Origin: Muribaculaceae bacterium
Lineage (GTDB): Bacteria; Bacteroidota; Bacteroidia; Bacteroidales; Muribaculaceae
Reading direction: 5' to 3'
Assembly (NCBI GenBank): GCA_029060625.1
Contig: JAIDTO010000174.1
Coordinates: 1 to 52,488, forward strand
DNA length: 52,488 nucleotides
Part shown: one piece after another, positions 1,431 through 40,735 of the stretch
Numbering within the stretch: position 1 is the first letter of the stretch
Layout: each line of letters begins with the position of its first letter
Made by a program: the position numbers and the translations under genes
Notes under the pieces: generated by a model
Told to the model about the DNA's origin: nothing
Database searches by the model: none
Seen by the model: only the letters and a program-made list of their open reading frames with translations

Positions 1431-3773
1431 TCAGATGTTGGGGGTATCCCATACTTTGGTGTCAGTGCAGGTGGCTTTCACCTTCTGGTTGCCGAGAGTG
1501 AATTCGAATTCGCCTTTTTCAATTGTCCACTTGCCGTCCTTGTTTACGAATGCGAGGTCAGATGCAGGGATGGTGAATTCAACAGTCTTGCTCTCACCGG
1601 GCTTGAGTGTCACCTTGTCGAAGCCACGAACCTTCAGCACGTCGGGAGTGATAGTGGCCACGAGGTCGCTGCTGTAGAAAATCACAGCTTCCTTGCCTTC
1701 CACGTTGCCGGTGTTCTTCACGTTGACAGAAACCTTTAGGTCGTCGGTCGGAGTGAACTCGGTCTTGTCGATTGAGATGCCGGAGTATTCATAGGTGGTG
1801 TAGCTCATGCCGTATCCGAATGGCCACTGCACGTCGATGTCAGCACTGTAGTTGTAGGCACCCTCCATTGTGGGCACAGTCTCGCATGGCTTGTGGTCGT
1901 AGGTAGCGAGAGCGTTGATCCACTTAGGATAAGTGAATGGGAGTTTACCGCTGAAGTTGCGCTTGCCGGAGATGAGTTCTGCAAGGGCATCGCCACCATA
2001 GTTGCCGGGAAGCATCACGTCGATCACGGCGCTTGCAAGAGGCTCGATCTCGCGGATGATGCGCGGACGCCCTTCGTTGAGTACGAGCACGATCGGCTTG
2101 CCGGTAGCAGCGAGAGCCTTAACGAGAGCTGTCTGGTTGGCTGAGAGATGAAGGTCGTTGGTATTGCCCGGAGTCTCGCAGTAGGAGTTCTCGCCTACGC
2201 AAGCTACGATGACGTCAACACTGCGGGCAGCTGCGACTGCAGCCTGGATGCGGACGTTGATCTCAGATTCCCATACCTCAGGATTATAGTCCATACCTTG
2301 CTCAAGCTTCACATTGGCATCGCCATAGATGAGGCGCATTGCCTCGTAGATGGTGTTATACTGGTCATGGAATTTCGGGTCATCACTTCCTTGCCATTTG
2401 TAGCTCCATCCGCCATTGAGCGAACGCATTGAGTTAGCGTTAGGTCCTGTGACAAGTATTTTCTTGCCCTGTGCGATTGGGAGAATGCCGCCTTCGTTCT
2501 TGAGAAGGACTTCGCTCTCAGCAGCAAGCTCAAGGGCCTTGAGGGCGTGAGCCTCGCTGCCGAAGTCAGGATAATCTGCCGGGTTCATTGTCGGGGTCTC
2601 GAAGAGTCCGAGGCGGAGTTTCAGGCGTACGATACGTTCTGCTGCGTCGTCGATACGTGCTTGGGATACCTTGCCCTCATCTACGAGTTCCTTGAGGAGA
2701 GTGCAGAATTCCATATCGTAAGGGGTCATCGACATATCGATACCGGCGTTGATAGCCATCATGATGGCTTCCTTATAGTCGGCTGCAACCTTATCGCGCT
2801 TCCAGATATTGTGGATGTCTGCCCAGTCTGTCACGATCATACCGTCCCAGTTGAGCTGTTCCTTGAGCCATACGGTGAGCATCTCGTGGTTGGCGTGGAA
2901 GGGGATACCGTTGACGATGCCTGAGTTGACCATAATTGAGAGAGCACCGGCACGGATTGCCATCTTATAAGGCTGGAAGTATTTCTCGCGGAGGTCGATG
3001 GGGCTGATGGATGCCGGGGTGCGGTCCTTGCCAGAGGTAGGCACACCGTAAGCCATATAGTGCTTGAGGCATGCTGCCACATTGTTGAGTCCTACGTGGT
3101 TTGGATCATCGCCCTGATAACCTTTGACCATCTCCACTGCCATAGCTCCATTGATGTACGGGTCTTCACCGAAGCTTTCCCACATGCGGCTCCATACCGG
3201 ATTGCGGCCGAGGTCCATGACTGGATTGTAGACCCAAGGAATTGAAGCAGCGCGAGATTCATATGCGCATATTGCAGCTCCTTCACGCACGAGGTCGCGG
3301 TTGAACGAAGCCGCCATATTGATCTCCTGGGGGAAGAGTGTGCCTCCGGTGGTGTAGGTAGTGCCATGGTTCTGGTCAACGCCGTAGATGTCAGGCACAC
3401 CGATATATTTCATCGATTCCTCTTGGATAGTGCCGATCACATAGTGCCAGGTCTCTAAGTCCTGGGCCTCACCGAGCGGAGTATTTAGGATTGAGCCGAC
3501 ACGGTATTTCTCGAATGCCTCCTGCATTTTTGCAGCATCGAGGGTGAATTTACCATTTTCCATGGTAGCCTTGTAGTCGGTGAGCTGTCCGATCTCGATT
3601 TCACACATCTGTCCGATTTTGTCTTCGAGCGTCATCTTGCCTACGATTTCCTTCACTCTCTTTTCGATGTCGTTGTCAGAGGGAATGGCAGCCTCTCCCG
3701 ATCCGGAGCCGCCGTTCTGTCCGCATGCTGTCAGAATGAGTCCCGACAGCAGGGTGATGGTTAGTTTTTTCAT
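1431..3773 (-). CDS. Glycoside hydrolase family 3 beta-glucosidase-like lipoprotein
   Basis: 780-residue GH3 enzyme, normal length for the BglX-type three-domain form: N-terminal TIM barrel, alpha/beta sandwich, C-terminal fibronectin-III-like domain (about 680-770). The family cleaves terminal beta-glucose or xylose from oligosaccharides by a retaining mechanism. Visible motifs: KHYMAYG and GKDRTPASI for substrate binding, and D316 in GMIVTDWADI as the expected nucleophile. A lipobox LTAC puts the mature N-terminus at C17. The next residues (GQNGGSGSG) lack the acidic surface-export signal, so the enzyme probably faces the periplasm. A minus-strand TAAATTTG box lies at 3806-3813. The gene stands alone, convergent with the upstream PatB gene. 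The exact sugar specificity is not readable from sequence. Confidence 0.93.
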   Translation of the reverse strand: MKKLTITLLSGLILTACGQNGGSGSGEAAIPSDNDIEKRVKEIVGKMTLEDKIGQMCEIEIGQLTDYKATMENGKFTLDAAKMQEAFEKYRVGSILNTPLGEAQDLETWHYVIGTIQEESMKYIGVPDIYGVDQNHGTTYTTGGTLFPQEINMAASFNRDLVREGAAICAYESRAASIPWVYNPVMDLGRNPVWSRMWESFGEDPYINGAMAVEMVKGYQGDDPNHVGLNNVAACLKHYMAYGVPTSGKDRTPASISPIDLREKYFQPYKMAIRAGALSIMVNSGIVNGIPFHANHEMLTVWLKEQLNWDGMIVTDWADIHNIWKRDKVAADYKEAIMMAINAGIDMSMTPYDMEFCTLLKELVDEGKVSQARIDDAAERIVRLKLRLGLFETPTMNPADYPDFGSEAHALKALELAAESEVLLKNEGGILPIAQGKKILVTGPNANSMRSLNGGWSYKWQGSDDPKFHDQYNTIYEAMRLIYGDANVKLEQGMDYNPEVWESEINVRIQAAVAAARSVDVIVACVGENSYCETPGNTNDLHLSANQTALVKALAATGKPIVLVLNEGRPRIIREIEPLASAVIDVMLPGNYGGDALAELISGKRNFSGKLPFTYPKWINALATYDHKPCETVPTMEGAYNYSADIDVQWPFGYGMSYTTYEYSGISIDKTEFTPTDDLKVSVNVKNTGNVEGKEAVIFYSSDLVATITPDVLKVRGFDKVTLKPGESKTVEFTIPASDLAFVNKDGKWTIEKGEFEFTLGNQKVKATCTDTKVWDTPNI

Positions 3774-3805
3774 TGGTATATGTTTTTTGTTGAAGAATCT
3801 AAACG

Positions 3806-3813
3806 CAAATTTA
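3806..3813 (-). promoter_or_regulatory. Bacteroidales -7 box for the GH3 gene
   Basis: Minus-strand TAAATTTG matches TAnnTTTG and sits 32 bases before the GH3 start codon. A clear TTTG at the -33 position is not seen. Confidence 0.5.
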
Positions 3814-3959
3814 TAAAAAAAATCGCTAATATCACACGAAATTTGATAATAAGTAAAAACAAAGATAATAAAGTATATGTGAATGTGTGGATTATGTGTC
3901 GTTCTAAGTAAAATTATGCAGGTCGATGCAGGTTAGGATAATTGAGATGCTTTTGGGAG

Positions 3960-4986: not shown

Positions 4987-6270
4987 TTAAAAATCGGTGA
5001 TGGCTCCCATGAAGAGCACTGTCCCCGACTGTGTGTCGCGAATCATATATGCGAACGGACTGTCTATTTTGATTTCTGTTGGTCTGTATTCAGCACCGGA
5101 GTCTGCAAACATACCTCCCAAGCTTGCGGCTCCACCTTCTGTGCCTTCTTCATCTACGATTATCCTTACGGCGTGCTGAAACAGTACAAGGAGCAGCGGC
5201 ATATCAGACACTTTGTCAAGCCCTTGACTGCAGGTCTTTTTGATTCCCATTTCTATAAGGCTTCCTAAAATGTTCTCGTTGATTGCGGTCTCGAATTTCG
5301 GCATATGCAGTATAAACGCCTGCAGATGCATGGCATTCTCATAGTTTGCTATCGCTTCGTCGTCAATTGTCTCCAGAAACTTACGGAATCCCTTTTCTGT
5401 GCCGGCGAGTGGCTGAAGTATTGTCATGCTGTAGCGATCTCCCTTATATGGCAGACGCAGACATCGCACTCCATCCGCCTCGGCATAGTCAAATAGGTTC
5501 TCAAAAGTCTTCATGAACGGGGTCTTGGTCTTTGAACCGTCAATGTTGTGGAAGTCCATATCTTTTGTAAGTTCCTTTACGAAGCCCGTTTCCCATGCTC
5601 CCTTGAAATAAGTGGTATTGAGGAAAGCAAGGTCGACTCCCAACGGGTTTTCGAGAAACGGATAGATCATTCCGCAAGTCTGGTCGTAGATAAATTTATT
5701 TATGGCCTCCATTCCATGCTCGTCGCCGAGCCATGTCGGAAATATCATGCCTCCGAATATACCTTTGATATCCGTCGCGAAATCCTGAAATATATTTACT
5801 TTGGGATGGTGCCATATTGAGTTGGTGAATCCACACTGGGTAGCTCCGTCAAACTGAGAGGTCTCTCTCAAAAGGGCGTTGGCGTAGACGTTCAGGTCGT
5901 GGAGGGCATCAGCACCGTTGCTATAGCCAAGCATGTTTAGAATCTCGTCGCGACATTCGCCGTCGTCTCCGTTTGCCATCATAGCAAAGGTGCAGAAGAC
6001 GCTGGCAGGCGACACGCAGATGTTTCCCGGTTTAGTCTTATATACGGTGCGGAAGAGATCAGTAGCGAAGCCATTGGCTCTTCCAACGTTATCCTGTGCT
6101 ACTTCCTGCAGTGTCCTTGCATCAGTGAAGTTGTATGTGGGTCGCTGTAATTCTCCCGGTTCCACAGGACAGATCACCGGCTCCGGATTCTTAGGATCAT
6201 CTGCATTGTCTGTGCATCCCCCTGCAAGGAGAGAGACTGCCGCGGCAGCCATGTAAATGTATTTCTTCAT
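4987..6270 (-). CDS. Serpin-family protease inhibitor lipoprotein (downstream serpin)
   Basis: 427-residue serpin, full length for the fold. Serpins trap serine or cysteine proteases by a suicide mechanism in which the cleaved reactive loop inserts into a beta-sheet. The shutter/breach helices (SPASVFCTFAMMANG), NTTYFKGAWE and the C-terminal strand SPFAYMIRDTQSGTVLFMGAI are clear. The hinge EEGTEGGAAS (small residues at P12-P9, G376 as P15) is of the inhibitory type. The loop tip continues LGGMFADSGAEYRP; P1 cannot be assigned with certainty. Lipobox LAGGC gives lipidation at C19, followed by TDNADD, an acidic stretch like the Bacteroides surface-export signal, so cell-surface display is likely. 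Last gene of a four-gene minus-strand unit, 39 bases after the anti-sigma-like gene. Confidence 0.93.
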   Translation of the reverse strand: MKKYIYMAAAAVSLLAGGCTDNADDPKNPEPVICPVEPGELQRPTYNFTDARTLQEVAQDNVGRANGFATDLFRTVYKTKPGNICVSPASVFCTFAMMANGDDGECRDEILNMLGYSNGADALHDLNVYANALLRETSQFDGATQCGFTNSIWHHPKVNIFQDFATDIKGIFGGMIFPTWLGDEHGMEAINKFIYDQTCGMIYPFLENPLGVDLAFLNTTYFKGAWETGFVKELTKDMDFHNIDGSKTKTPFMKTFENLFDYAEADGVRCLRLPYKGDRYSMTILQPLAGTEKGFRKFLETIDDEAIANYENAMHLQAFILHMPKFETAINENILGSLIEMGIKKTCSQGLDKVSDMPLLLVLFQHAVRIIVDEEGTEGGAASLGGMFADSGAEYRPTEIKIDSPFAYMIRDTQSGTVLFMGAITDF

Positions 6271-6309
6271 TGTCTTAGATATTCTTTAATATTATTTTTA
6301 TTTGGTTTC

Positions 6310-7614
6310 TTATTTGCCTGGATTGAGCATCAATCTCACTCCCACGTTCAGGTTGAAGTTCCATGGACGATCCTTGTAGATGGTGGATAGATTAGTGGCG
6401 TCGTTGAAGTAGTAGCTGACTCCGGGCTCTGCGAATATGCCGATATTGGGCAGAGGCTTCAACTGTAGTCCGGGAGCGGCATTGACCGACCATTGCATAG
6501 GTTTCTCTTTCTGAGAAGAATATTGCTCAAGTGATAGGCCATCAGCTGCGGATTTAGTCTGGAACCGATTGCTTACACATTTCTCCCCCATTCCTCCGGC
6601 AGACAGGTAGATGTCGACCGCTTTCCACGACCATATTGAGAATTTGATGTTCAGAGGAATTCCTATGTAATGCATCTGTCGTTCTCCTGAAGATGCTTTA
6701 TTGCCTTGGCTTACAGTGAAGTCGGAAGATAACGACGTATACATGACTCCCGTCTCAAGTCCGATGTGGTCAGTCAGGCTGTACTGGAAAGTAATACCTG
6801 CCCTTATTGGTATATGATGGTGAGTTTCTGTGTTTATGGGTATGTTGTCCGGATCTTCAAAAAATGGTGGGTTATTCGTAGACCCAAAGTTAGGATCTCC
6901 GACTGAATTACTGCCGGGATCAGAATTGACGAAATCATCGTCATAATTAGGATAATTGTTGCCCCATAGCGGACCGTTGCCAATGTTTGTGCCAGGTGTC
7001 TGCCCCATACTTCCGGTTGCCTGTCCTATCCCGGAAGCGTAGGCTGCTACTGCGTACCTGCCATTCTGATTTCTATGGCTTCTCCGTTTAGGAGCTATAC
7101 CGGCATAAAGAGGCATCCCTTTCCCGGTGTCGGCTCTCTTATAATTCCTTATCTCGGGGGCATCTTCTATATCCTTAAGTTCCTGCGAGATTGTGTCGGT
7201 GTATGAAGCGATATTTTCATCCTCGGATATAGATGATATGGGTGCTTCCTCTTGGTTCCTTATGTTTGAAGGGGCGGCTATCCTTGGGGCTACAGTTGCG
7301 GTTGTAGCCGGAGCCTGTTCGGTCGTTGTCGGAAGTGATTGCATAGGTTCGCCTCCGGTGTTTTCAGGGAGTGAAGAGTAAGCTGCTGCTCTTGTATCGC
7401 TGACTTCGAGAGATTCCCCACGGCTGATCCACAAGAGAAAACTTCCTCCTATCGAAAGCAAAGCAAGTAGCGCCGCGGCTACCGCCACCTTCCTTCGCCA
7501 AGAGCTTTTGGGCGCGGGAGTTTCAACCCCAAGGCTTTCCCAGAGTCCTTCAGGCGCATCCATCTCAAAGTCTGAAAGGCCTTCGCGTAGATCTTCGATC
7601 CATTTCTCGTTCAT
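6310..7614 (-). CDS. Putative dual-membrane-spanning anti-sigma factor (N-terminal cytoplasmic/TM part, C-terminal outer-membrane barrel)
   Basis: 434 residues with an unusual architecture. An acidic cytoplasmic segment (1-40, including APEGLWESLG) is followed by a positively charged edge and one transmembrane helix (about 42-64). Then comes a long Ser/Thr/Pro/Asn-rich periplasmic stretch (65-265) and a C-terminal region from about 268 that reads as beta-strands of an OMP_b-brl porin-type barrel (RAGITFQYSLTDHIGLETGVMY; NVGVRLMLNPGK at the end). The start codon overlaps the stop of the ECF sigma gene by four bases (ATGA). This layout matches the Dma class of Bacteroides, in which one protein joins inner membrane, periplasm and outer membrane and restrains its partner sigma factor; in B. 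thetaiotaomicron that class is linked to vesicle formation. The anti-sigma role here is inferred from architecture and position. Confidence 0.75.
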   Translation of the reverse strand: MNEKWIEDLREGLSDFEMDAPEGLWESLGVETPAPKSSWRRKVAVAAALLALLSIGGSFLLWISRGESLEVSDTRAAAYSSLPENTGGEPMQSLPTTTEQAPATTATVAPRIAAPSNIRNQEEAPISSISEDENIASYTDTISQELKDIEDAPEIRNYKRADTGKGMPLYAGIAPKRRSHRNQNGRYAVAAYASGIGQATGSMGQTPGTNIGNGPLWGNNYPNYDDDFVNSDPGSNSVGDPNFGSTNNPPFFEDPDNIPINTETHHHIPIRAGITFQYSLTDHIGLETGVMYTSLSSDFTVSQGNKASSGERQMHYIGIPLNIKFSIWSWKAVDIYLSAGGMGEKCVSNRFQTKSAADGLSLEQYSSQKEKPMQWSVNAAPGLQLKPLPNIGIFAEPGVSYYFNDATNLSTIYKDRPWNFNLNVGVRLMLNPGK

Positions 7615-8177
7615 ATGTCGGGGTTGTTAGATTGATAATTCTTAATTCTTGCTGCCAATAGTGCTTTTGCCCTATGGAACTGGGAGGCTGAGGATGCTTC
7701 CTTGATGTTGAGGATGGAGGCTATTTCCTTGTGAGACTTCTCTTCGAATACGTATAGGTTGAAAACTGTTCGGTAGCCCGGTGGAAGTTCCCTGATCAAT
7801 TTATGTAGAGTTTCCATTGATAGACCTTCGAGTTGAGGAGGTTCATCGTCTTCGGGTTCTTCTGCCTCAAAAGAAAGATCCAAAATTTCAGAACGGTAGG
7901 CATGGCGGATAAACTGCAGTGATTCGTTGATTACAATCCTTGTAAGCCAGGCCTTAAGCGATCCTGGACCTCTATATTCAAAAGAGGTCATTGACGCGAA
8001 GATGCGAATGAAACTGTCGTGGAGCACATCTTTTACGTCCTCAGGAACAGACAGATAGCGGGTACATACGCCGGTAAGGTAGCCGGCATATGTACAGTAC
8101 AAGGTTTTCTTGGCTAAGGGATCATCCTTTCGCATCAACCTTGCGATTCCCTCTTCTCTGTCTTTGTGGTCAGTCAA
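7611..8177 (-). CDS. ECF-type RNA polymerase sigma factor
   Basis: 188-residue sigma-70 family ECF factor. Region 2 runs from about residue 10 to 85, with DVLHDSFIRIFASMTSF and WLTRIVINESLQFIRH matching helices 2.2-2.4. An acidic linker follows (SFEAEEPEDDEPPQ), then region 4 with LPPGYRTVFNLYVFEEKSHKEIASILNI and the helix-turn-helix KEASSASQFHRAKALL. The start appears to be TTG at 8177: no in-frame ATG precedes it, and the first ATG, codon 15, would remove the beginning of region 2. It lies 13 bases after the upstream serpin and overlaps the anti-sigma-like gene by four bases. Such factors usually activate their own operon when the anti-sigma partner is inactivated. Confidence 0.93.
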   Translation of the reverse strand: MTDHKDREEGIARLMRKDDPLAKKTLYCTYAGYLTGVCTRYLSVPEDVKDVLHDSFIRIFASMTSFEYRGPGSLKAWLTRIVINESLQFIRHAYRSEILDLSFEAEEPEDDEPPQLEGLSMETLHKLIRELPPGYRTVFNLYVFEEKSHKEIASILNIKEASSASQFHRAKALLAARIKNYQSNNPDI

Positions 8178-8190
8178 TTTTTCTACGATA

Positions 8191-9447
8191 TCATAATGAC
8201 GTCACAGTGCCGATAAAAAGAATTGCGTCGGAGATAGTGTCGCGAATTATATAGACGAATGGACGGTCGAAAACCATTGATATCGGCTCGAAGCCAGGTC
8301 CAGCTGCATTGTCCATCCCAGCGAGACTTGCAGCGGCTCCCTCTGTGCCTTCTTCATCCACTATAATCTTTACAGCGTGGCGGAATTGAGTGAGAAATAG
8401 AGTTTCGTCAGTGGCTTGGTGGATACCACGGGTACATACCTTGTCGAAGCCAATTTGCTTCAGATAGTCGATCATAGAAATGTTGATTTCAGTCTCGAAC
8501 TTCGGCATTTTAAGTATTATTTCCTGATGGGATACTGAAGATTCAATATCCTTAAGTGTTTTTGTGTCCAGGGAGTTAAGCATATTGTCGAAACCCTTTT
8601 CATCTTTGGGCTGTAGCAGTGTCATGGTGTATCTGTCGCCGGAGTAAGGCAGACATACCCCTCTTATGCCATCTGTTTCGCAGTAGATGAGGTCATCGTT
8701 TAGATTCATGAATGAGGCCTCTGACTTTGAACCATCAATATTGCTGAAAATGCCCTTGCGTGTAAGGTTCTTGTTAAATTCATTCTTCCATTTGCCCTTG
8801 AAATATGTGGTATTCAGAAATGCAAGTCTAACGTCCAAGGGGTTTGATAGGAATTCCGGGATCATTCCATTGGTATAATGGCTTACGAATTCATTTAGTT
8901 TAGATTTTCCTGATTCGTCTCCAAGATAAATCGGGAATAATGATCCTCCGAAAATCAATCGTATGTCTGATGCAAATTTAGGAAGCAGTTTTAGATCAGG
9001 ATGATACCATATTGAGTTAGTGAAGCCGCATTGTGTGTCTCCGTTGAGCATGGGGACTTCTGTCATCAGGGCATTGCAGTATATATCGAGTTCGTGAAGC
9101 CCTCCGGGATCATTGCTATAACCCAATATATCCAATATTTCGTCACGGCTTTCCCCATCGTCGCCATTTGCCATCATTGCGAATGTGGAGAATACGCTTA
9201 TGGGCGACACGCAGACATTCCCTTTTTCCCCTTCATATACTGCCTTGAAGAGTGATGAGGCGAATCCATTTGATTTGTCAATGTTGGCAGAGGCTATCTT
9301 CGCAAGTGGCTGGGCATCTTTCCAAGGTTCATCTCCAAATCCGGGGCAGATTACGAATTTGTTGTTATCCTGGCTGTCGTCTATGTCGGAGCATGCTCCG
9401 GAAAGAAGACCCAGGCATGCTATTCCTGCAAATATCAGTTTTTTCAT
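8191..9447 (-). CDS. Serpin-family protease inhibitor lipoprotein (upstream serpin)
   Basis: 418-residue serpin, paralogous along its length to the one at 4987-6270 (shared SPISVFSTFAMMANG, NTTYFKGKW and KIIVDEEGTEG blocks). The hinge EEGTEGAAAS (G367 as P15) has the small side chains needed for loop insertion, so an inhibitory serpin is expected. The tip LAGMDNAAGPGFEP differs from its partner while the distance to the strand FDRPFVYIIRD is identical, implying a different target protease. Lipidation is expected at C19 (LSGAC), followed by SDIDD, a good surface-export signal. It is the first gene of the serpin-sigma-antisigma-serpin unit. No TAnnTTTG promoter is visible upstream; an ECF-like site lies at 9520-9547. 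Confidence 0.93.
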   Translation of the reverse strand: MKKLIFAGIACLGLLSGACSDIDDSQDNNKFVICPGFGDEPWKDAQPLAKIASANIDKSNGFASSLFKAVYEGEKGNVCVSPISVFSTFAMMANGDDGESRDEILDILGYSNDPGGLHELDIYCNALMTEVPMLNGDTQCGFTNSIWYHPDLKLLPKFASDIRLIFGGSLFPIYLGDESGKSKLNEFVSHYTNGMIPEFLSNPLDVRLAFLNTTYFKGKWKNEFNKNLTRKGIFSNIDGSKSEASFMNLNDDLIYCETDGIRGVCLPYSGDRYTMTLLQPKDEKGFDNMLNSLDTKTLKDIESSVSHQEIILKMPKFETEINISMIDYLKQIGFDKVCTRGIHQATDETLFLTQFRHAVKIIVDEEGTEGAAASLAGMDNAAGPGFEPISMVFDRPFVYIIRDTISDAILFIGTVTSL

Positions 9448-9448
9448 A

Positions 9449-9500
9449 ATTGAATAGGTTCTTATAAATTTAACAATATTCGATCGAACGTCTATTCAAT
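9449..9500 (-). promoter_or_regulatory. Inverted repeat in the leader of the serpin operon
   Basis: Nine-base arms ATTGAATAG (9449-9457) and CTATTCAAT (9492-9500), 34 bases apart, lie directly before the upstream serpin start. This could be an operator or a leader-RNA stem. No family was recognised. Confidence 0.35.
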
Positions 9501-9519
9501 AAATAAGGAATTATGAAAA

Positions 9520-9547
9520 CCTTGCACGCAGAAGTGAAAAAAGTTGC
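9520..9547 (-). promoter_or_regulatory. Candidate ECF-type promoter of the serpin operon
   Basis: On the minus strand GCAACTTTTTT is followed six bases later by TGCGTGCAAGG. An AAC motif with a T-run, then a CGT-containing element, is the general shape of ECF-dependent promoters. It lies about 73 bases before the serpin start, where no housekeeping -7 box is present. The match is by eye only. Confidence 0.4.
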
Positions 9548-9558
9548 CTATATGCTCA

Positions 9559-10770
9559 TTACTTTAGGATGGGGAAGAGGCGGAGGTAGGTGAGGCAACG
9601 CCAAATCCATTCGAGGGGGCCGAAGCGGAAGAATCGGAGCCAGAGGGCACTGATGCATATTTGGAATGCGAAGACGCATAGTACTGTGAGTTCCACATAA
9701 ATAAGGCCGGTGTTGGCTCCGAATCCAAAACCGGTGCCGTAGTAAATGAGCATTCCGATCAGCGACTGCCCTATATAATTGGTCAGTGCCATGCGGCCGG
9801 GATAGGCGAGAATTTTCCAAAATGACGCATTCCGGTGGCGCAGATAAAGAAGGCATAGGGCTCCGATATATCCGAAAGCTGTAAGATAGACACTAAGGAA
9901 ATATATCAGGCTGTGTGCACCGAGCCCGAACGGATGTCGCGAGATGGAGTGCCATGCGTATAGACATGATAGAGGCAATCCAAGGCAGAGTCCCCAAACG
10001 GCAACTTTGCGAAGAAGTTTTTTCCTTGTCTCGAGATCGGCATAAAGTCGGTCGCGACCTATATAGAGCCCTATCATAAAGAGTCCCAATACCTTAAACC
10101 AGCGATGACCGTCCACAAATTCCTGTATTCTGACAATCGCACCCTGAATCAGGAAGTCGAAGACCTTGCCATAGCTGTCTGCATCGCGCAGCCAATATGC
10201 GAAGTTTTCTTCAGTAATTCCGACTTTGGCACATTCCTGCCATTGCCAATCGACAATAGGTGATGATAGGGATATTCCATTTGCTTCCAGTATGAAATCA
10301 AGTATTACCGGTAGGAAAAGAAGCACACCGGCTGTCAGAAGCAATGCTCTGTCTGAAACTTTCAGGAAGAGTGGCAGGATCATCCCCATCAAGGCATACA
10401 GCATCAGTATATCGCCACTCCATATATACATGAGGTGTAGAAACCCAATTATCAGCAGTATAAACATGCGTCGGTAGAAGATGGCAAAAGCGTTGCCTCC
10501 TCTCTTGGATACATTGGAGATTATGATTGAGAATCCGATTCCGAAAAGGAGGGAGAAGATGGTATAGAACTTTCCATCGATAAATATGCTAAGGAAATAT
10601 TTCGTGATCAGGTCCCACCCGGAGGTTGGCATCATTGATGATGCTTCCGTAGGGAGAAAAGAGTATAGCGAGAATTCCGGAAAATTGGCCATGCAGATGC
10701 CGAGGAGCGCGAAGCCGCGGAGAGCATCGAGGATTACGTGCCGCTTCGATACCGGTACTATGTTGTTCAT
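9559..10770 (-). CDS. DUF418-domain polytopic membrane protein (YeiB-like)
   Basis: 403 residues, strongly hydrophobic with roughly nine to ten predicted membrane helices. The opening RHVILDALRGFALLGICMANF is the signature of the YeiB/DUF418 family. The C-terminal DUF418 domain contains GRMALTNYIGQSLIGMLIYYGTGFG. Such proteins sit in the inner membrane; their biochemical role is not established, although transport or acyl transfer has been suggested because the N-terminus resembles heparan-acetyltransferase-like proteins. The ATG overlaps the stop of the PatB-like gene by four bases, so the two are co-transcribed and translationally coupled. This suggests a role linked to a product of that C-S lyase, but that is inference. 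Confidence 0.88.
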   Translation of the reverse strand: MNNIVPVSKRHVILDALRGFALLGICMANFPEFSLYSFLPTEASSMMPTSGWDLITKYFLSIFIDGKFYTIFSLLFGIGFSIIISNVSKRGGNAFAIFYRRMFILLIIGFLHLMYIWSGDILMLYALMGMILPLFLKVSDRALLLTAGVLLFLPVILDFILEANGISLSSPIVDWQWQECAKVGITEENFAYWLRDADSYGKVFDFLIQGAIVRIQEFVDGHRWFKVLGLFMIGLYIGRDRLYADLETRKKLLRKVAVWGLCLGLPLSCLYAWHSISRHPFGLGAHSLIYFLSVYLTAFGYIGALCLLYLRHRNASFWKILAYPGRMALTNYIGQSLIGMLIYYGTGFGFGANTGLIYVELTVLCVFAFQICISALWLRFFRFGPLEWIWRCLTYLRLFPILK

Positions 10771-11933
10771 ATCTTCTGAGTAAAGCGGAGAAATCGTTCA
10801 AGGCCGTCAGCGAGGACAGAGCGAGGGCAGGCTATGTTCCAACGCATATAACCTTCGCCATCGACTGAGCCATACATAGTGCCAGAATTGAGCCAAAGGC
10901 TGACATCTTCAATCAAATTTTCCTCGAGAGCTTCTGATTTAAGACCGAGGCGGGTACAGTCCATCCATACGAGATAAGTGGCTTCAAGTCTGGCTATCGG
11001 GAAATCCGGAAGATGCTTCTCGCAGAAATCTTTCATATAATCATAGTTCCCTTTTATATAGTCGAGAAGTTGAGACAGCCATTCCTCACCCTCATTATAG
11101 GCAGCAATGGTTGCGATCACTCCAAATGGATTGACATCACATACTTCATTGATGTTGATGGCTTTGTCAATTCTTGCGCGTGTATCCTCGTCCGGTACGA
11201 TGATATTGGCAATCTGCAGGCCGGCGATATTGAAGGCCTTGCTTGGCGATACGCAGACCACGGCCCTGCATCCAGCCTCTTCCGCTACTTTGGCGAATGG
11301 TGTGTAGTGGAGGCCGTCAAATACGAACTCACAGTGTATCTCGTCGGAGATCACAGTGACCCCATTACGTGCGCATATTTCCGCTATGCGTTTCAGATCC
11401 TCGCTGCTCCATACCCTACCGGCAGGATTGTGAGGATTACATAGGAGCATCATTGTGGTGTTTGGGTCGGCAGTGTCCTTCTCCAGGCGGTCGAAGTCAA
11501 TGTCGTAGGTGTCGCCTGCTCGCAGCAGCGGGCTTTCGAGGATCACGCAGCCGTTGTTTCGGATAGATGAGAAGAAACAGTTGTAGACCGGAGTCTGAAC
11601 CAATACGTTCTCCCCCGGGCTGGTTAGAGCCTTGATGATTGCCGATATTGCAGGCACTACCCCTGACGTGTAGATCATCATATTGCGGTCGATGGTCCAT
11701 CCATGGCGGCGGCTGAACCATGATATGACTGCCTCGTAGTATTCTTCCGGGACTCTGGTATATCCGAAGATGCCGTTGTCTACTCTCTTATGAAGTGCCT
11801 CTATGATGGCAGGGGCTGTCTTGAAGTCCATGTCGGCTACCCACATCGGAAGGACACCTTCAGGAGCACTGTCCCATTTATAGGAAAGCGTGCCCCTCCT
11901 CGGGGTCACGCTGTCGAAATCATATTTCATCAT
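10767..11933 (-). CDS. PatB/MalY-family PLP aminotransferase, second paralogue
   Basis: 388-residue fold-type I PLP enzyme, alignable end to end with the gene at 113-1288 (VADMDFKTAPAIIEAL, CNPHNPAGRVWSSEDL, SPSKAFNIAG with K232 as the Schiff-base lysine, GYMRWNIACPRS). The predicted reaction is beta-elimination from cystathionine or another cysteine S-conjugate. The start may be either of two adjacent ATGs (11933 or 11930). It is followed with overlap by the DUF418 membrane protein and preceded, 51 bases away, by the DUF3737 gene on the same strand, so the three may form an operon. Because another copy lies 10 kb away, the two may have different substrates. Confidence 0.9.
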   Translation of the reverse strand: MMKYDFDSVTPRRGTLSYKWDSAPEGVLPMWVADMDFKTAPAIIEALHKRVDNGIFGYTRVPEEYYEAVISWFSRRHGWTIDRNMMIYTSGVVPAISAIIKALTSPGENVLVQTPVYNCFFSSIRNNGCVILESPLLRAGDTYDIDFDRLEKDTADPNTTMMLLCNPHNPAGRVWSSEDLKRIAEICARNGVTVISDEIHCEFVFDGLHYTPFAKVAEEAGCRAVVCVSPSKAFNIAGLQIANIIVPDEDTRARIDKAININEVCDVNPFGVIATIAAYNEGEEWLSQLLDYIKGNYDYMKDFCEKHLPDFPIARLEATYLVWMDCTRLGLKSEALEENLIEDVSLWLNSGTMYGSVDGEGYMRWNIACPRSVLADGLERFLRFTQKI

Positions 11934-18968: not shown

Positions 18969-19095
18969 CGTGCTAAACCTATTAAAATAAGTTTAAAATT
19001 AGTAATTAACCTATAAAAAATCGTAACTTCACGAGCGTTCCGGCTTGGAATCAAAAGGAGTGAAATTATTGAAAATAAACATCATAAAATGTATT

Positions 19096-22000
19096 ATGAC
19101 CAAAATTAAACTAACATCGAAACGAGAAAAGGGCGGGTCCTTCCTGTGGAAGACGTTCCTGACCTTGATCGCCATCTTGATGGCGGTTCCCGCGTTCGCT
19201 CAGAATGTCGACGTGTCCGGTACGGTACTCGACGACCAAGGCGAACCCCTCATCGGCGTTACCGTTATGGTTGAAGGAACCTCTAACGGCACGGCAACCG
19301 ATTTTGACGGCAATTATTCATTAAAGAATGTTCCTTCTAAGGGCAAGCTCGTCTTCTCTTACATCGGCTACTCACAGCAGGTTGTAGACGTAAAGGGTCG
19401 CACCCAGATCAACATCACGATGAGCGAGGACTCCAAAGCCCTTGACGAACTTGTGGTAGTTGGTTACGGTCAGATCAAGAAGGCTGACCTTACCGGTTCT
19501 GTATCAGTCGTTGATGCAGGTCAGATCACAGCAAAGGGATCTGCTTCAGTCCTTGAGGCAATGCAGGGAGCGGTGCCCGGTGTAAGCATTACAAAAGCTA
19601 CCGGTCGTACGAATGGCGCTATCGACATCGAAATTCGTGGTAAATCATCAATTAATTCTGATGTGAAGCCTTTGTATGTTGTTGATGGTGTGCAAACAAG
19701 CGATATTTCTTTCCTTAACCCACAGGATATCGAACGTGTGGACATTCTTAAAGATGCCTCATCTACTGCAATTTATGGTTCTCGTGCAACCGCAGGTGTT
19801 GTCTTGATTACCACAAAGAGCGGTGCCAATGTGGAAAAAGGCACCAAAGCTACAATATCTTATGATGGCTACTACGGTATAAGCCATGCTACTCGTATGC
19901 CCCAGTTTATGGACGGAACACAATGGTATCGCTATCGTTTCCAGAAGTTTACCCAGCCTACCGGTGGCGTTACAGCATGGGAGCCTCAGACCACGTTTGG
20001 CTCACTCCCCGCAGATATGGGTATTGGTCAAGCCCTTATTCAGCAGGTGGCAAGTGATCTGACTTCTCCTTATATATTGAAGGAAATGATTGCTAATGAC
20101 GCGACTTCTTATTGGCCAGGGCTTGTGACCCAGGATGGTCATCAGCAGAATCATTATGTTTCTGTTTCCGGTGCCGGTGATAAAATCAATTATCATTTTG
20201 GCCTTGGCTACGAGAATGTGGAGGGTCTTTACAAGGGTGATAGTAAAGGCACATACTCTTTCAAGGGAAGTGTGGACGCAAAGATTAATAAGGTGATCAG
20301 TGCAGGTTTCAATTTCAACTTAGCTCAGATCAATAATAATTATGCTGACAGTGACGCAATCGCACAGGCTTATCGTGTGAATCCGTTTATGATACCATAC
20401 GATGAAGATGGCAATACAGTTCACTTCCCTGGCAACAAAGCTACTCTTGGTTCGGATGTCCATCAGTTCTCTGACTTCATCAATCCTCTTGATAGAATGA
20501 AGAACTCCACTGAAAAGAGAAAGACCTACCGAATGCTTGGAAATATCTATGCTCAATTCAATATCATCCAAGGCTTAAGTTTCAAGACTACAATCTCACC
20601 GACATATACTTCTTATCGTAATGGTGAGTATGTAGGTTTTACAAATCCATCAACCGGTAAGACTTGGGTTGACAATGATGTGCGTAATGCCACTGTGAAA
20701 AACCAGACGAGCTATGGTTGGACATGGGATAATGTTTTGAGCTATGTCCGTTCTTTCGGTGATCACTCAATTAATGCGATGGCTCTTTATTCTGCAGAGA
20801 AGGGAAATACAGAGACCTATGAGGAAACCGCACAGAATCCTATTGAGTCTACCAAGTGGTGGAATCTCGGTACAGGTACAAAGGGTGAGGCCACAGTTAG
20901 CTCCGGTTTCAGCGAGAGCACTATGGAATCTGTGGCAGTGCGTGCCAATTATTCATGGAAAAGCCGTTATATGGTTACTGCTACTGTGCGTTGGGACGGT
21001 TCTTCCAGATTTGCTGAAGGATATCGTTGGGGATGTTTCCCCTCTGTGGCAGTTGGATGGAATATAGCAGAAGAGTCTTTCCTTCAGAAATGGTGGCTCA
21101 ATAATTTGAAGCTTCGTGCAAGTTATGGTGTGACCGGTAACAATGCAGGTATCGGAAACTATGCGACGATAGTAGGGGTGAATTCTTCAAACTTCTATCC
21201 ATTCGGCAATAAATATTATGATGGATTTTATCCTTCAGGTCTTGTTGATAAGGAGATTCAGTGGGAGAAGTCTCATGAGTTTAACATCGGCCTTGATTAT
21301 GGATTCTTGAACAACCGTATCGTTGGTAGCATCGAATGGTATACAAAGACATCAAAAGAACTTCTTTATGATATGCCTCTGCCGATGGAGACTGGATATG
21401 ACAAAATCTACACAAACGTAGGATCTGTAAGAAACACCGGTGTGGAATTCAGTATTACGACTACGAATATCGATACACGTGACTGGACTTGGACAACTTC
21501 GTTGAACCTTTCACACAATGATAACAAGGTGCTTGTCATTAATGGAATCTCTGATCAGATTATCGGTGGCAACTCAGGCAGCTGTCTTTTCGTTGGTCAA
21601 CCTGTGAACAATGCATATGCTTACGCATGGGATGGTATAATTTCAGATCGTAATATGACAGTTCCAAACCATCAGATTGCGATTGATAAAGGCTTTACTC
21701 CTGGTGCTACGGTTCGTGAATGTGACTATTATTACGCATGCTATGGTCAGGCAGAAGGTCAACCCATTATTCGTGACGTAAATGGTGATGGTAAGTGGAA
21801 CGATGAAGACCGTGTGGTTTTCAATAGCAATCCGAAGATTACAGGTGCAATCACATCTAATCTTTCATATCGTCTTCCCAAGAAAGGTGGTTCTCTTGAC
21901 TTAGGTATCTCTGTCTATACAAAGATGGGTTTCAAGGTTGTTTCTCCGTTTATGGCAGGCGACTGGTTTGACTGGCACGACCGTGGTCGTGGTAAGGTCA

Positions 22001-22434
22001 TGATGGATAACTATATTCCAGCCGGTATGCTTCTTGACTGCGAGGGTGTAAATCCTGATGGTACTCTTATCAACCCGGTTTACCAGACGCAGACCCATTA
22101 TGGATCATGGCCGCTCGTAAATGCAGGTGGTAACGATGGCCTTGGCCCGGCTGCTTCATACTTTGGTTATAATAATAATGACAATAAGTTTAATGCTAAG
22201 CAGGTAACTGACGGTTCGTTCTGGAAAGTACAGCACATTTCCCTTGGTTATAATTTCTCTCGTGAAATTACAGAGAAATTTGGTTGTAGCAAGCTGAGAC
22301 TTTATGTAAATATCACCAACCCGTTCGTATGGTCAAAGTATAAGGGCTTTGATCCGGAATGGGCGACAGCTGCCAATAAGAATGATGGTCCGAGCACAAT
22401 CACATATGAGTTTGGTGCCAATATTACATTCTAA
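19096..22434 (+). CDS. SusC/RagA-family TonB-dependent outer-membrane transporter (locus 1)
   Basis: About 1112 residues from the ATG at 19096, chosen because MTKIKLTSKREKGG leads straight into the signal peptide ending VPAFAQ. A TTG 17 codons upstream is open but adds nothing family-like. The mature protein begins with a carboxypeptidase-regulatory-like domain (VSGTVLDDQGEPLIGVTVMV) and a TonB-box region LDELVVVGYG. The plug domain (about 110-230, PLYVVDGV and DPSSTAIYGSRA-like block KDASSTAIYGSRATAGV) and a 22-strand barrel follow. It imports oligosaccharides across the outer membrane with the SusD lid protein encoded 18 bases downstream. The locus context (pectate lyases, GH140) suggests pectic substrates. 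Confidence 0.93.
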   Translation: MTKIKLTSKREKGGSFLWKTFLTLIAILMAVPAFAQNVDVSGTVLDDQGEPLIGVTVMVEGTSNGTATDFDGNYSLKNVPSKGKLVFSYIGYSQQVVDVKGRTQINITMSEDSKALDELVVVGYGQIKKADLTGSVSVVDAGQITAKGSASVLEAMQGAVPGVSITKATGRTNGAIDIEIRGKSSINSDVKPLYVVDGVQTSDISFLNPQDIERVDILKDASSTAIYGSRATAGVVLITTKSGANVEKGTKATISYDGYYGISHATRMPQFMDGTQWYRYRFQKFTQPTGGVTAWEPQTTFGSLPADMGIGQALIQQVASDLTSPYILKEMIANDATSYWPGLVTQDGHQQNHYVSVSGAGDKINYHFGLGYENVEGLYKGDSKGTYSFKGSVDAKINKVISAGFNFNLAQINNNYADSDAIAQAYRVNPFMIPYDEDGNTVHFPGNKATLGSDVHQFSDFINPLDRMKNSTEKRKTYRMLGNIYAQFNIIQGLSFKTTISPTYTSYRNGEYVGFTNPSTGKTWVDNDVRNATVKNQTSYGWTWDNVLSYVRSFGDHSINAMALYSAEKGNTETYEETAQNPIESTKWWNLGTGTKGEATVSSGFSESTMESVAVRANYSWKSRYMVTATVRWDGSSRFAEGYRWGCFPSVAVGWNIAEESFLQKWWLNNLKLRASYGVTGNNAGIGNYATIVGVNSSNFYPFGNKYYDGFYPSGLVDKEIQWEKSHEFNIGLDYGFLNNRIVGSIEWYTKTSKELLYDMPLPMETGYDKIYTNVGSVRNTGVEFSITTTNIDTRDWTWTTSLNLSHNDNKVLVINGISDQIIGGNSGSCLFVGQPVNNAYAYAWDGIISDRNMTVPNHQIAIDKGFTPGATVRECDYYYACYGQAEGQPIIRDVNGDGKWNDEDRVVFNSNPKITGAITSNLSYRLPKKGGSLDLGISVYTKMGFKVVSPFMAGDWFDWHDRGRGKVMMDNYIPAGMLLDCEGVNPDGTLINPVYQTQTHYGSWPLVNAGGNDGLGPAASYFGYNNNDNKFNAKQVTDGSFWKVQHISLGYNFSREITEKFGCSKLRLYVNITNPFVWSKYKGFDPEWATAANKNDGPSTITYEFGANITF

Positions 22435-22452
22435 TATATAAGGATATAAATT

Positions 22453-24300
22453 ATGAAAAATATAAAATATTATCTTTTTGGACTGGGCACTGCACTCCTT
22501 ATGACAGGATGCTCTGATTTCCTCGACTCAAGAAACTTGTCGAGTTCAGAGAATGCTGATGATTATTTCTTTGCTCATCCTGACCAGATACGCCCTGTGG
22601 TATATAATGCCGTTAGGTATATTGCCACACATATTGATATGCTTGATCAAGCAGGAGACCTGTATATCAATCCTCGTAGTGCAGACGACGGCACATTCTC
22701 GATGTTTACGGTAACTCCAGAAAATGGTACTGTAAAAGACTATTATCAAAAAGTGATGTATATGATCAATAAGGCGAACTGTATGATCTATTATGCAGGA
22801 AATGATGCTGAGTTAGCTGCTGAAGGTCGCTTCATCCGTCTTTTTGGTTACTATTATCTGACCCAGCAGTTTGGTGCTGTGCCTTATGTTACGGAATATA
22901 TCCAGACTGCTGTAAATGACTTCCCGAGAACACCTCTTGACGAGTGCTACGCCAATATGCTTGCTGAATGTGAGGATCTATATAATAATTCTCCGCTTCC
23001 TGATCAGAGCCACACGGGCTATGCAAGCAAACAAGCAGTGGCTGCCATGGCAGCCAAAATCGCTCTTGCAGCAGGATGGGATCTTGACACTTCTCTTGGA
23101 AATGCCACAGCAGGAAGTTACACTGTAAATGACACGAAATATTTCAAGCAGGCTGCCTCATGGGCCGAGAAAGCTATTATGGGCATTCAGCTCACGATGT
23201 CTTTCTCTGAGAAGTGGGCTTGGAACAATGAAGGAAATGCTGAGGAAATCTTCTCTGCGCAGTATGATAAGGATGGTTACCCTGGTGATAAGGCTACCAA
23301 TGGTCATTCGTTGATGAACAACTATATGGCTTATTATAGCAACTGTATCCAAACAGGTCAGAAGGGCACAGGTGGTGGTGGTACAAACTGCTGCTCTCAA
23401 AAGGCTGCTTCTTTGTTTGAAAAGGGTGATACCCGTTTTGAAGGAACATTCATGACATTCTTCTACAATTCTCCTATTAATCCGGAGACAAAGAACGCTG
23501 AATGGGGCAAACAGGGCTATATGGCTTGGTATAACTGTACTCCGGAAGAGCAGAAGGCACTTCCGATCGCTATGAGGATCTATCCTCCAGCAACAACAGT
23601 AGCAGAGGCCGAAGCTGACATCAAGCAGATGATTGAAGATGGTAGAATACTCAAGAAGTTTGCTACTAATACTTATGGTGTCAATGAGCCTTTTGCCGCT
23701 ATCATAACAGGTCAGGATGTCACAAAATGGGAGTTTAATACCAGTGGAACAATGCCTTCAAAGAAAGTGGTTGCTTACACTGAATTCATTCGTACATCTG
23801 CTAATAATGGTACATGTGTGACAAAATATGATGATCCAACAGCTGCTAATGTAACAGGAAGTCAGGATTATCGCGACATACCACTTCTCCATGTCAGCGA
23901 AATGTATCTTACAGCCGCAGAAGCATATCTGCTCGCAGGGGATGAAGCCAGCGCTTTACGCTACATCAACGCCGTACGCAAGCGTGCAGGTGCTACTGAG
24001 CTTGGATCATTCGGTGCATATGAGGCTCCTTACGTAACAAGTACTAATTTCACATTTATGCCTATCGACCTCGTGCTTGATGAGCGTGCGCGTGAATGTT
24101 ATGCCGAAAGGACTCGTTACTTCGACCTTCGTCGTACAAAGCAGTTGGTAAGATACAATCTTGAATTCAGCCGCTTTATGAAGACTGTTGCAGATATGAG
24201 CAATGCCGCAGGTGAGATCAAGTGGTATCGTCCAATTCCACAGGCAGAGATTGACAGTAATAAGGGTATTTCAACAGCAGATCAGAACCCCGGATATTAA
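22453..24300 (+). CDS. SusD/RagB-family nutrient-binding lipoprotein (locus 1)
   Basis: 615-residue surface lipoprotein, lipobox MTGC with C20 followed by SDFLDS, a usual SusD start. The helical TPR-like core (about 90-230, including FIRLFGYYYLTQQFGAVPYVTEY) and the C-terminal block LLHVSEMYLTAAEAYLLAGDEASALRYINAVR followed by DLVLDERARECYAERTRYFDLRR are classic SusD. It forms the lid over the SusC channel and captures glycan. It lies 18 bases after the SusC stop and 15 before a small lipoprotein gene. Confidence 0.93.
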   Translation: MKNIKYYLFGLGTALLMTGCSDFLDSRNLSSSENADDYFFAHPDQIRPVVYNAVRYIATHIDMLDQAGDLYINPRSADDGTFSMFTVTPENGTVKDYYQKVMYMINKANCMIYYAGNDAELAAEGRFIRLFGYYYLTQQFGAVPYVTEYIQTAVNDFPRTPLDECYANMLAECEDLYNNSPLPDQSHTGYASKQAVAAMAAKIALAAGWDLDTSLGNATAGSYTVNDTKYFKQAASWAEKAIMGIQLTMSFSEKWAWNNEGNAEEIFSAQYDKDGYPGDKATNGHSLMNNYMAYYSNCIQTGQKGTGGGGTNCCSQKAASLFEKGDTRFEGTFMTFFYNSPINPETKNAEWGKQGYMAWYNCTPEEQKALPIAMRIYPPATTVAEAEADIKQMIEDGRILKKFATNTYGVNEPFAAIITGQDVTKWEFNTSGTMPSKKVVAYTEFIRTSANNGTCVTKYDDPTAANVTGSQDYRDIPLLHVSEMYLTAAEAYLLAGDEASALRYINAVRKRAGATELGSFGAYEAPYVTSTNFTFMPIDLVLDERARECYAERTRYFDLRRTKQLVRYNLEFSRFMKTVADMSNAAGEIKWYRPIPQAEIDSNKGISTADQNPGY

Positions 24301-31052: not shown

Positions 31053-31081
31053 GGACGCACGAGCCGTGCGTCCCTACAAGA
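31053..31081 (+). repeat. Dispersed palindromic element, copy 6 (supplies the GH92 stop codon)
   Basis: Perfect core 31053-31073 and tail CTACAAG. The CTA at 31074-31076 is the TAG stop of the GH92 gene on the minus strand, so the last codons of that gene lie in the element tail. It fills the convergent tyrA/GH92 junction. Confidence 0.9.
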
Positions 31082-33845: not shown

Positions 33846-33906
33846 GATGCAGGCCATATTTTGATTAAGACTTCCGACAGAGTCCGAAGCCCAATGTTGA
33901 TAAGTG

Positions 33907-40600: not shown

Positions 40601-40716
40601 ACCCATTTGTCATCACAAAATATAAAGGTATCGATCCTGAGGTGTTCAGCGGTATTGACAGCTCTACATACCCACGTCCTGTAAGCTTCACAGTCGGCCT
40701 TATCGCCAATTTCTAA
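37627..40716 (+). CDS. SusC/RagA-family TonB-dependent outer-membrane transporter (locus 2)
   Basis: 1029 residues with a signal peptide ending LPALAQ. A carboxypeptidase-regulatory-like domain (VHGYVDDATGEPLIGATVME) follows, then the TonB box region ETVVIGYGSVKKSD, a plug domain with PLIVLDGVPLSNDG and LKDASATAIYGSRASNGV, and a large beta-barrel ending in SFTVGLIANF. It forms the outer-membrane import channel with the SusD encoded 20 bases downstream. The neighbouring GH53 and GH13 enzymes suggest galactan and/or alpha-glucan fragments as cargo. The first about 90 mature residues are close to those of the other SusC in this window. Confidence 0.93.
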   Translation: MKNVCFTLSRKVLMAIAMLLTFTLPALAQKITVHGYVDDATGEPLIGATVMEKGTSNGTATDFDGNFILNVAPDATLVISYIGYDTQEVPVNGKTDIRVTLQDNATMLAETVVIGYGSVKKSDATGSVALVTPDEIDAGISTSAQDLLVGASPGVVVTTNGGSPEGGATIRIRGGASLNASNDPLIVLDGVPLSNDGVNGMANPLAMISPDNIESMTILKDASATAIYGSRASNGVIIITTKKGKGGARPQVNFSANMTVNTARKTWNVLDGDEYRELIRNYWGVGSNADLALGTANTDWQKEILRTAISHEYNLSVGGKAGFLPYRVSASFTDNNGILKDSEMKRVTAGFNLTPEFFGGLLKVNANVKGYYLRNRFTDEGCTNNAIQADPTAPVYTNVASGNPDFPYFYNGYSTNVNGNDFNSQGILNPLAMATDRDNTADIYRSNGNLQIDYALHFLPDLHLNLNLGYDVSRSHNNIYTEQNSPTAWNNTYKNGAAYYYNAYELRRNTLLDFYMNYKKDFDAISSTLDVMAGYSYQRFDSHGHNNGNVITSLGFLLPSASNGVLTLDQSSSDKIGTSYTPYYEWKSGNLILCSFFGRLNYTFKDTYLLTFTLRDDGTSRFSKNNRWGLFPSVALGWKINNMPFFESASNTMNEFKLRLGWGQTGQQSVGGYFDYMATYVQSQQGSYYPNMYTGQYLNNGNVTGYTLYPAGYNPNLKWETTTTWNVGLDMGWLNNRVTLALDWYLRDSKDLLATVTVAPGAATTNELTQNVGSLRNIGIEGTIGVKPIYTDNFVWNTSLNVAWNKNEITKLNASSDPGYYVPLGGMGATGNTCQAHKVGLPAYTFLLYEQIYDQEGKPIEGAYVDQNGDGQINSEDLVFKHSRDPKVTLAWNNNFSFGNWDLGFQLRASIGNYVYNNVLAQRSYLNGTYSNSSLRNVVANDGVYFVGQQYYSDYYLENAGYVRCDNITLGYTWNNLLNDNLRLRLYGAVQNPFVITKYKGIDPEVFSGIDSSTYPRPVSFTVGLIANF

Positions 40717-40735
40717 TCTTAAGGAACAAAAAAAT

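Follow-up and report, generated by a model that had tools for sequence, protein, structure and literature searches.

Serpins in the place of NigD: a putative serpin-bearing variant of the Dma/ECF21 envelope-stress cassette in Muribaculaceae and other Bacteroidales

Two serpins, a sigma factor and a Dma-type protein in one operon

Contig JAIDTO010000174.1 of a Muribaculaceae bacterium (GenBank assembly GCA_029060625.1), analysed here over its full length of 52,488 nucleotides and referred to as the window, carries a compact four-gene set in which two serpin genes flank the genes for an extracytoplasmic function (ECF) sigma factor and a putative dual-membrane anti-sigma factor of the Dma type. 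All four genes are encoded on the minus strand in the order serpin1 (8191..9447, 418 residues), sigma factor (7611..8177, 188 residues, TTG start), Dma-type protein (6310..7614, 434 residues) and serpin2 (4987..6270, 427 residues), with intergenic gaps of 13, -4 and 39 bases, the negative value corresponding to a 4-base overlap between the sigma and Dma genes. The locus had been singled out in a model-generated reading of the sequence (the original prediction), which proposed that a sigma factor and an envelope anti-sigma factor control two surface protease inhibitors; the gene arrangement given there was confirmed from the coordinates of the open reading frames (ORFs).

Both serpins are full-length, as the original prediction had stated, with the serpin domain (PF00079) covering residues 59-417 of serpin1 (E 8.8e-73) and 66-426 of serpin2 (E 1.5e-66). 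They contain a hinge with small residues at positions P15-P8, as is characteristic of inhibitory serpins, which reads EEGTEGAAAS in serpin1 and EEGTEGGAAS in serpin2; the hinge and reactive-centre loop comprise residues 365-397 of serpin1 (8257..8355, minus strand) and 374-406 of serpin2 (5053..5151, minus strand). Alignment of serpin1 to its best solved relative, conserpin-AATRCL (PDB 6ee5), revealed a four-residue insertion in the window protein, so that the P1 residue could not be placed. A window serpin also resembles miropin of Tannerella forsythia (PDB 5ncs) in full-length sequence (E 1.2e-36) and in its inhibitory-type hinge, and miropin was reported to inhibit plasmin (PMC8233489). Among the serpins of the genus that belong to sigma-Dma cassettes, mean identity amounts to 78% in the hinge, 45% in the core, 30% in the distal loop and 26% at the N-terminus. 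Of 23 close pairs, not independent of each other, 19 were less similar in the distal loop than in the core. A conserved hinge combined with a divergent distal loop would be anticipated for inhibitors that act on different targets. The two window proteins are probable lipoproteins, showing lipobox-like motifs followed by acidic stretches (SGAC+SDIDDS in serpin1 and AGGC+TDNADD in serpin2), and a motif of this kind with at least one acidic residue within the next six positions was found in 19/19 cassette serpins of the genus. Acidic residues at this distance from the lipobox cysteine are considered to favour surface display.

Regions 2 and 4 of the sigma factor (PF04542 and PF08281) both score above the Pfam cut-off and are supported by a 23-row alignment; the protein exceeds the cut-off of the superfamily model TIGR02937 and stays below that of Sig70_bacteroi1, and it groups among NigD-linked sigma factors of Bacteroidales. 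In a 21-row alignment, the Dma-type protein displays a short head, a hydrophobic stretch starting near residue 43 (hydropathy maximum 2.37 at that residue), a long variable linker and a barrel that is conserved up to the C-terminus. The predicted inner-membrane helix spans approximately residues 42-64 (7423..7491, minus strand) and the putative outer-membrane barrel residues 261-430 (6325..6834, minus strand), of which residues 261-402 match OMP_b-brl_2 (PF13568) with 42.1 bits against a cut-off of 27. A head, one membrane helix, a long tether, a C-terminal barrel and an adjoining ECF sigma gene, the attributes of the Dma anti-sigma family, are thus all recognized, and the concordance of Pfam, hydropathy and alignment sustains, at this level, the assignment made in the original prediction. 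Comparison of the Dma profile with solved structures returned three matches, all to ion channels, with a best E value of 0.1, none of them believable.

Conservation of the cassette and alternation of serpin with NigD

Related sigma/anti-sigma pairs have been described in Bacteroidales, and the published work drawn on here comprises PMC13088901, PMC13114119, PMC9308784, PMC8233489 and PMC6222051. In Bacteroides thetaiotaomicron, the effect of Dma1 on vesicles is mediated by NigD1, and Das1 is described as an ECF21 sigma factor; NigD1 is induced on deletion of dma1 and is reportedly required for the raised vesicle production of the dma1 mutant (PMC13088901). The Dma1-Das1-NigD1 system shares with the window an ECF sigma factor and an anti-sigma factor with a cytoplasmic head, one helix, a long tether and a C-terminal barrel, but its cargo is NigD whereas that of the window is a pair of serpins. 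The EcfO-Reo system of Phocaeicola vulgatus and Bacteroides fragilis presents the same pairing, with an anti-sigma factor described as five-compartment; to judge by locus-tag numbers one of the nigD genes under its control (M0N98_03762) appears to adjoin the sigma gene, in the slot that is occupied by a serpin in the window. Three nigD genes of P. vulgatus depend on EcfO and, in the gut of monocolonised mice, rank with the genes of highest expression, and the one NigD tested as a protein was absent in broth unless Reo was deleted or the cell was stressed, and was located on cells as well as in the supernatant, NigDs being described as surface lipoproteins (PMC13114119). The toxin BcpT induces the EcfO-Reo pair (PMC9308784); induction has been reported for antibacterial toxins and in the mouse gut, and the authors proposed outer-membrane stress as the signal (PMC13114119, PMC9308784).

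With the window sigma factor as query, 23 close orthologs (aligned at 46-96% identity) were retrieved from 111 genomes of the genus, and the neighbourhoods of all of them were mapped. The gene maps were built with a simple ORF caller and home-made profiles, with which genes can be missed (as at L221; L numbers denote surveyed loci), and some of the surveyed assemblies are incomplete. Another 44, more distant sigma matches were obtained in the genus, 37 of them inside open frames of 513-617 residues, including two in the genome of the window (C44 and C294). A serpin directly adjoins the sigma-Dma cassette in 17/23 cases: on both sides in the window, only upstream in 15 (as far as the contigs reach) and only downstream in L066. 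An eighteenth cassette (G290) is split between contigs inside the Dma gene; on the second contig, the Dma fragment is followed by a serpin. The remaining five cassettes (L074, L075, L079, L081 and L084) contain instead an upstream gene of 243-261 residues with the Pfam domains NigD_N and NigD_C, separated from the sigma gene by one small gene in L075. NigD was found above the cut-off in 5/111 genomes of the genus, exactly at these five cassettes, with a sixth match below the cut-off, so each cassette of the genus was seen with either NigD or serpin and never with both. No NigD was found in the genome of the window, which is 79% complete and in which serpin1 and serpin2 were the only serpins detected. 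Since NigD is the reported cargo of the EcfO-Reo and Dma1 systems, the serpin occupies the NigD slot in this genome. Serpins also occur elsewhere in the genomes of three of the five NigD cassettes.

Either serpin can be missing from the set. L033 retains serpin1-sigma-Dma without serpin2, and L034/L066 retains sigma-Dma-serpin2 with serpin1 gone; upstream of position 9167 of L066, the promoter motif described below and the first serpin1 codons, including the lipobox, persist before the sigma gene, as if an internal deletion had occurred. In L033 a gene on the opposite strand (2613-3896), ATPase-like by eye, lies between a DUF418 gene and serpin1.

At the family level, five of the 30 best-scoring serpin loci (L012, L015, L020, L023 and L032) have a Dma gene directly upstream, either separate or fused to the sigma factor. 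For the order, in which serpins are present in 130/295 Bacteroidales genomes, 84 regions around best-scoring serpins were examined, corresponding to the first 86 rows of a score-sorted list (to G633:C261), a sample that is not random and favours high-scoring serpins. A sigma-Dma cassette lies within 2 kb of the serpin in 18/84 regions, when about 1.5 at most would be expected with a mean genome of 3.6 Mb and an upper count of 11 sigma genes per genome (the estimate being 2.7). These regions span 12 families besides that of the window, 13 in all, and the cassette is directly adjacent to the serpin in 16 of the 18. Serpin, sigma factor and Dma follow each other on the same strand, as they do in the window, in three regions (L135, L190 and L215), serpin and sigma genes are divergent in 14, and in L218 they are on the same strand with one gene between them. 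Another ECF sigma gene was detected near the serpin in L096 (genus) and L179 (order) with no Dma gene found, and these loci were left uncounted.

Single-chain proteins combining sigma factor, helix, linker and barrel were also encountered beside serpins (L088:8195-9883, L089:7442-9277, L090:11207-12979, L255:2485-4179 and L256:5954-7684). They were considered as a possible novelty, an idea that was discarded because an N-terminal sigma domain has already been described for Dma3 (PMC13088901). The window, in contrast to Dma3 and these loci, has separate sigma and Dma genes.

Quick trees, with SH-aLRT values as the only measure of support, were constructed for both partners. The sigma tree comprised 66 chosen rows, which leave L109, L119, L125, L134, L221 and L252-L254 outside (L119 and L125 being the loci of L135 and L136), with the N-terminus of L072 trimmed and with L218 and L133 on long branches. 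On this tree the presence of a serpin requires four changes, three of them forced by strongly supported branches, and the group of the window is nested among NigD-bearing sigma factors. In the serpin tree (96 rows, in which L015 and L020 are labelled fusDma3 and actually have separate sigma and Dma genes) the cassette serpins of the genus form one clade with a support of 99; serpin1 and serpin2 both belong to it, each grouping with its counterparts in relatives, and outside it are the serpins of L135, those of the Dma3-type loci and those of a second genus. Sigma and serpin distances within the genus are strongly correlated (Mantel r 0.83, 0/2000 permutations, n=17). A single origin of the pairing is not favoured, given the four label changes and the placement of cassette serpins in different clades; the simplest account suggested is that Dma cassettes acquired serpins repeatedly and that the partners then descended jointly.

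Promoter motifs associated with serpin and NigD cassettes

The motif TGCAAGGTTTTCATAATTCCTTATTTA is located 5' of serpin1 (9500..9526, minus strand) and is likely the ECF promoter of the operon. Its TGCAAG core is found within 300 bp of the first gene in 23/23 cassettes of the genus, against 1.7 predicted by shuffles, and in 22/23 it is accompanied, after a spacer, by a second element similar to GATTTA or GTTTTA (0.2 predicted), counts that were made on the same sequences from which the motifs had been read, eight of the 23 being close relatives and not independent. Cassettes with NigD and cassettes with a serpin do not differ in this motif, which was also detected 5' of NigD in 4/4 same-strand loci outside the genus, so that the promoter class of the window is that of the nearest NigD cassettes. 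In the genome of the window the motif pattern occurs at two places only; the second site precedes a 496-residue frame that is GH3 glycosidase-like by eye. All three loci examined in a second genus of the family (L252, L253 and L254, two of them near-identical), with the gene order sigma-Dma-serpin, have the motif twice, once 5' of the sigma gene and once in the short gap that precedes the serpin.

A different element was recognized where serpin and sigma genes are divergent. Inverted GCAAC elements, one facing each side, are present in 13/14 of these gaps (0.40 expected), and the fuller form GCAAC-N13-20-CAT in 22/28 directions (0.61 expected), this motif likewise having been derived from the gaps in which it was counted. 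The pattern GCAACCTTT-N9-14-CATCT gave 15 matches in five of six genomes with divergent pairs and none for the reversed control, and one match to the GCAACC motif was located 32 bases 5' of a NigD gene, in a genome that also bears such a divergent serpin-sigma pair. Serpins without a nearby cassette have the motif in 12/67 cases vs 5/186 of other ORFs (Fisher p 1e-4), a comparison restricted to ORFs of more than 200 residues and excluding those with less than 150 bases upstream. As the motif is commoner at these serpins than at other ORFs, some serpins without an adjacent cassette may respond to a distant one. Two lipoprotein-like genes are preceded by the GCAACCTTT motif in the genome of L138 (L249 and L251); one of them is FKBP-type isomerase-like by eye, and both are possible regulon members. 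Divergent NigD/sigma gaps in other families show yet another element, resembling ATACTGCATC...GTTAAA, in 5/7 loci by eye (L112, L113, L115, L117 and L122).

The conserved synteny that the original prediction had put forward as its own test is evidenced by the 17/23 cassettes that adjoin a serpin, and the tie it had proposed between sigma factor and serpins is backed, as far as the sequence goes, by the common promoter motif before the operon. The position of the serpin in the NigD slot, the recurrence of the pairing across Bacteroidales families and the loss of the upstream serpin with retention of the promoter had escaped it.

Elsewhere in the window, two genes encoding class I/II aminotransferases (113-1288 and 10767-11933) bracket a segment with a GH3 gene, a metallopeptidase gene and the serpin operon, and two SusC/SusD-type gene pairs (19045-24300 and 37627-42466) have a GH92 gene (31074-33857) in between.

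A putative envelope-stress cassette with surface serpins as cargo

Based on these observations, the window probably represents a serpin-bearing variant of the Dma/ECF21 envelope-stress cassette of the EcfO-Reo type, with surface serpins as its payload. In the resting state the head of the Dma protein would hold the sigma factor at the inner membrane with the barrel inserted in the outer membrane, and a disturbance of the outer membrane or of the barrel would release the sigma factor, which would then drive transcription of the operon that encodes it from the TGCAAG-type promoter 5' of serpin1. The serpins would be made as lipoproteins, probably displayed on the surface, where they may trap proteases as suicide inhibitors, filling the place held by NigD in the sister cassettes.

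Several observations weigh against this interpretation. The AlphaFold models of the Dma protein and serpin1 were unusable (pLDDT 28 and 34.5, respectively) and, because of the former, the Dma architecture is deduced from the primary structure. The acidic post-cysteine lipoprotein signals announced in the original prediction stand as far as acidity is concerned (CSDIDDS and CTDNADD), but neither stretch matches the strict CS(D/E)2 export signal, and the lipobox scan applied to the genus was positive for only 8/16 serpins of divergent cassettes. Most serpins of the genus are encoded outside sigma-Dma cassettes. At the order level, one gene separates serpin and sigma factor in 2/18 regions, and in L190 and L215 the Dma similarity is weak with no Pfam barrel. 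Finally, L135 lacks the motif, L137 lacks the inverted motif pair and the fused-Dma loci L255 and L256 have no motif before the serpin, to which the dependence among the motif counts mentioned above should be added.

Among the other explanations, the original prediction had favoured a protease-sensing circuit, considered here as an alarm in which Dma would be cut by a protease in its linker or surface loops, freeing the sigma factor, and the serpins would block that same protease. Delivery of the serpins to vesicles, which it had also envisaged, would be conjectural. The long linker and the barrel would be cleavable, a serpin cargo would close a direct feedback loop, and distal loops that differ between cassettes (30% identity vs 45% in the core) are expected if the target proteases differ. 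Nevertheless, neither a cleavage site nor a protease was identified, EcfO-Reo, the closest pair studied so far, is reported to respond to toxins and probably to general envelope stress, and the same type of cassette bears NigD without a serpin at five loci of the genus, which together make the alarm rather improbable.

Two explanations appear less probable still, and to the same degree. In one of them a periplasmic serpin blocks the protease with which the cell itself degrades or trims Dma, thus resetting the switch. The co-divergence of serpin and sigma factor (r 0.83) and their common promoter are what a built-in regulator would show, but an acidic residue after the lipobox cysteine in all 19 cassette serpins of the genus favours surface display, NigD substitutes for the serpin in sister cassettes and one serpin copy can be lost. 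In the other, the serpin has a non-inhibitory role, being structural or promoting vesicle formation like NigD1 of B. thetaiotaomicron, which is reported to be needed for the raised vesicle production of the dma1 mutant (PMC13088901). Slot and promoter class are indeed the same as for NigD; on the other hand, NigD and serpin belong to different Pfam families, and the identities of 78% in the hinge vs 45% in the core and 30% in the distal loop are those expected of inhibitors.

That the genes are chance neighbours with independent regulation is very improbable and was rejected on the order-level counts (18/84 vs about 1.5). Serpins are indeed common in the order (130/295 genomes) and ECF sigma genes numerous, but the 17/23 cassettes of the genus and the promoters common to serpins and sigma-Dma cassettes also speak against chance, and these conservation counts indicate that the four-gene set is more than a chance assembly.

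The interpretation of the window as a serpin-bearing stress cassette admits a broader extension, which we advance as a speculative idea with a small chance of being correct: NigD and serpin could be exchangeable cargo of an order-wide Dma/ECF21 surface-shield programme, doing the same job with unrelated folds, and NigD itself could act at the surface to inhibit enzymes or toxins that attack the cell. If this were true, serpins and NigD would answer an attack on the outer membrane in the same way, the serpins being the version that can be read.

A literature search for a link between serpins and Dma found no paper, nor was a regulator of bacterial serpins found; in the main text of PMC13088901, PMC13114119 and PMC9308784 the word serpin does not occur. 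In this context, the sigma-Dma switch is proposed as a regulator for bacterial serpins and, conversely, the stress response is proposed to arm the cell surface with inhibitors. With a serpin taking the NigD slot and a promoter of the same class, the cassette offers a cargo with readable and testable biochemistry, and since the pairing is found in 13 families of Bacteroidales, including that of the window, its study would be possible outside this uncultured genome.

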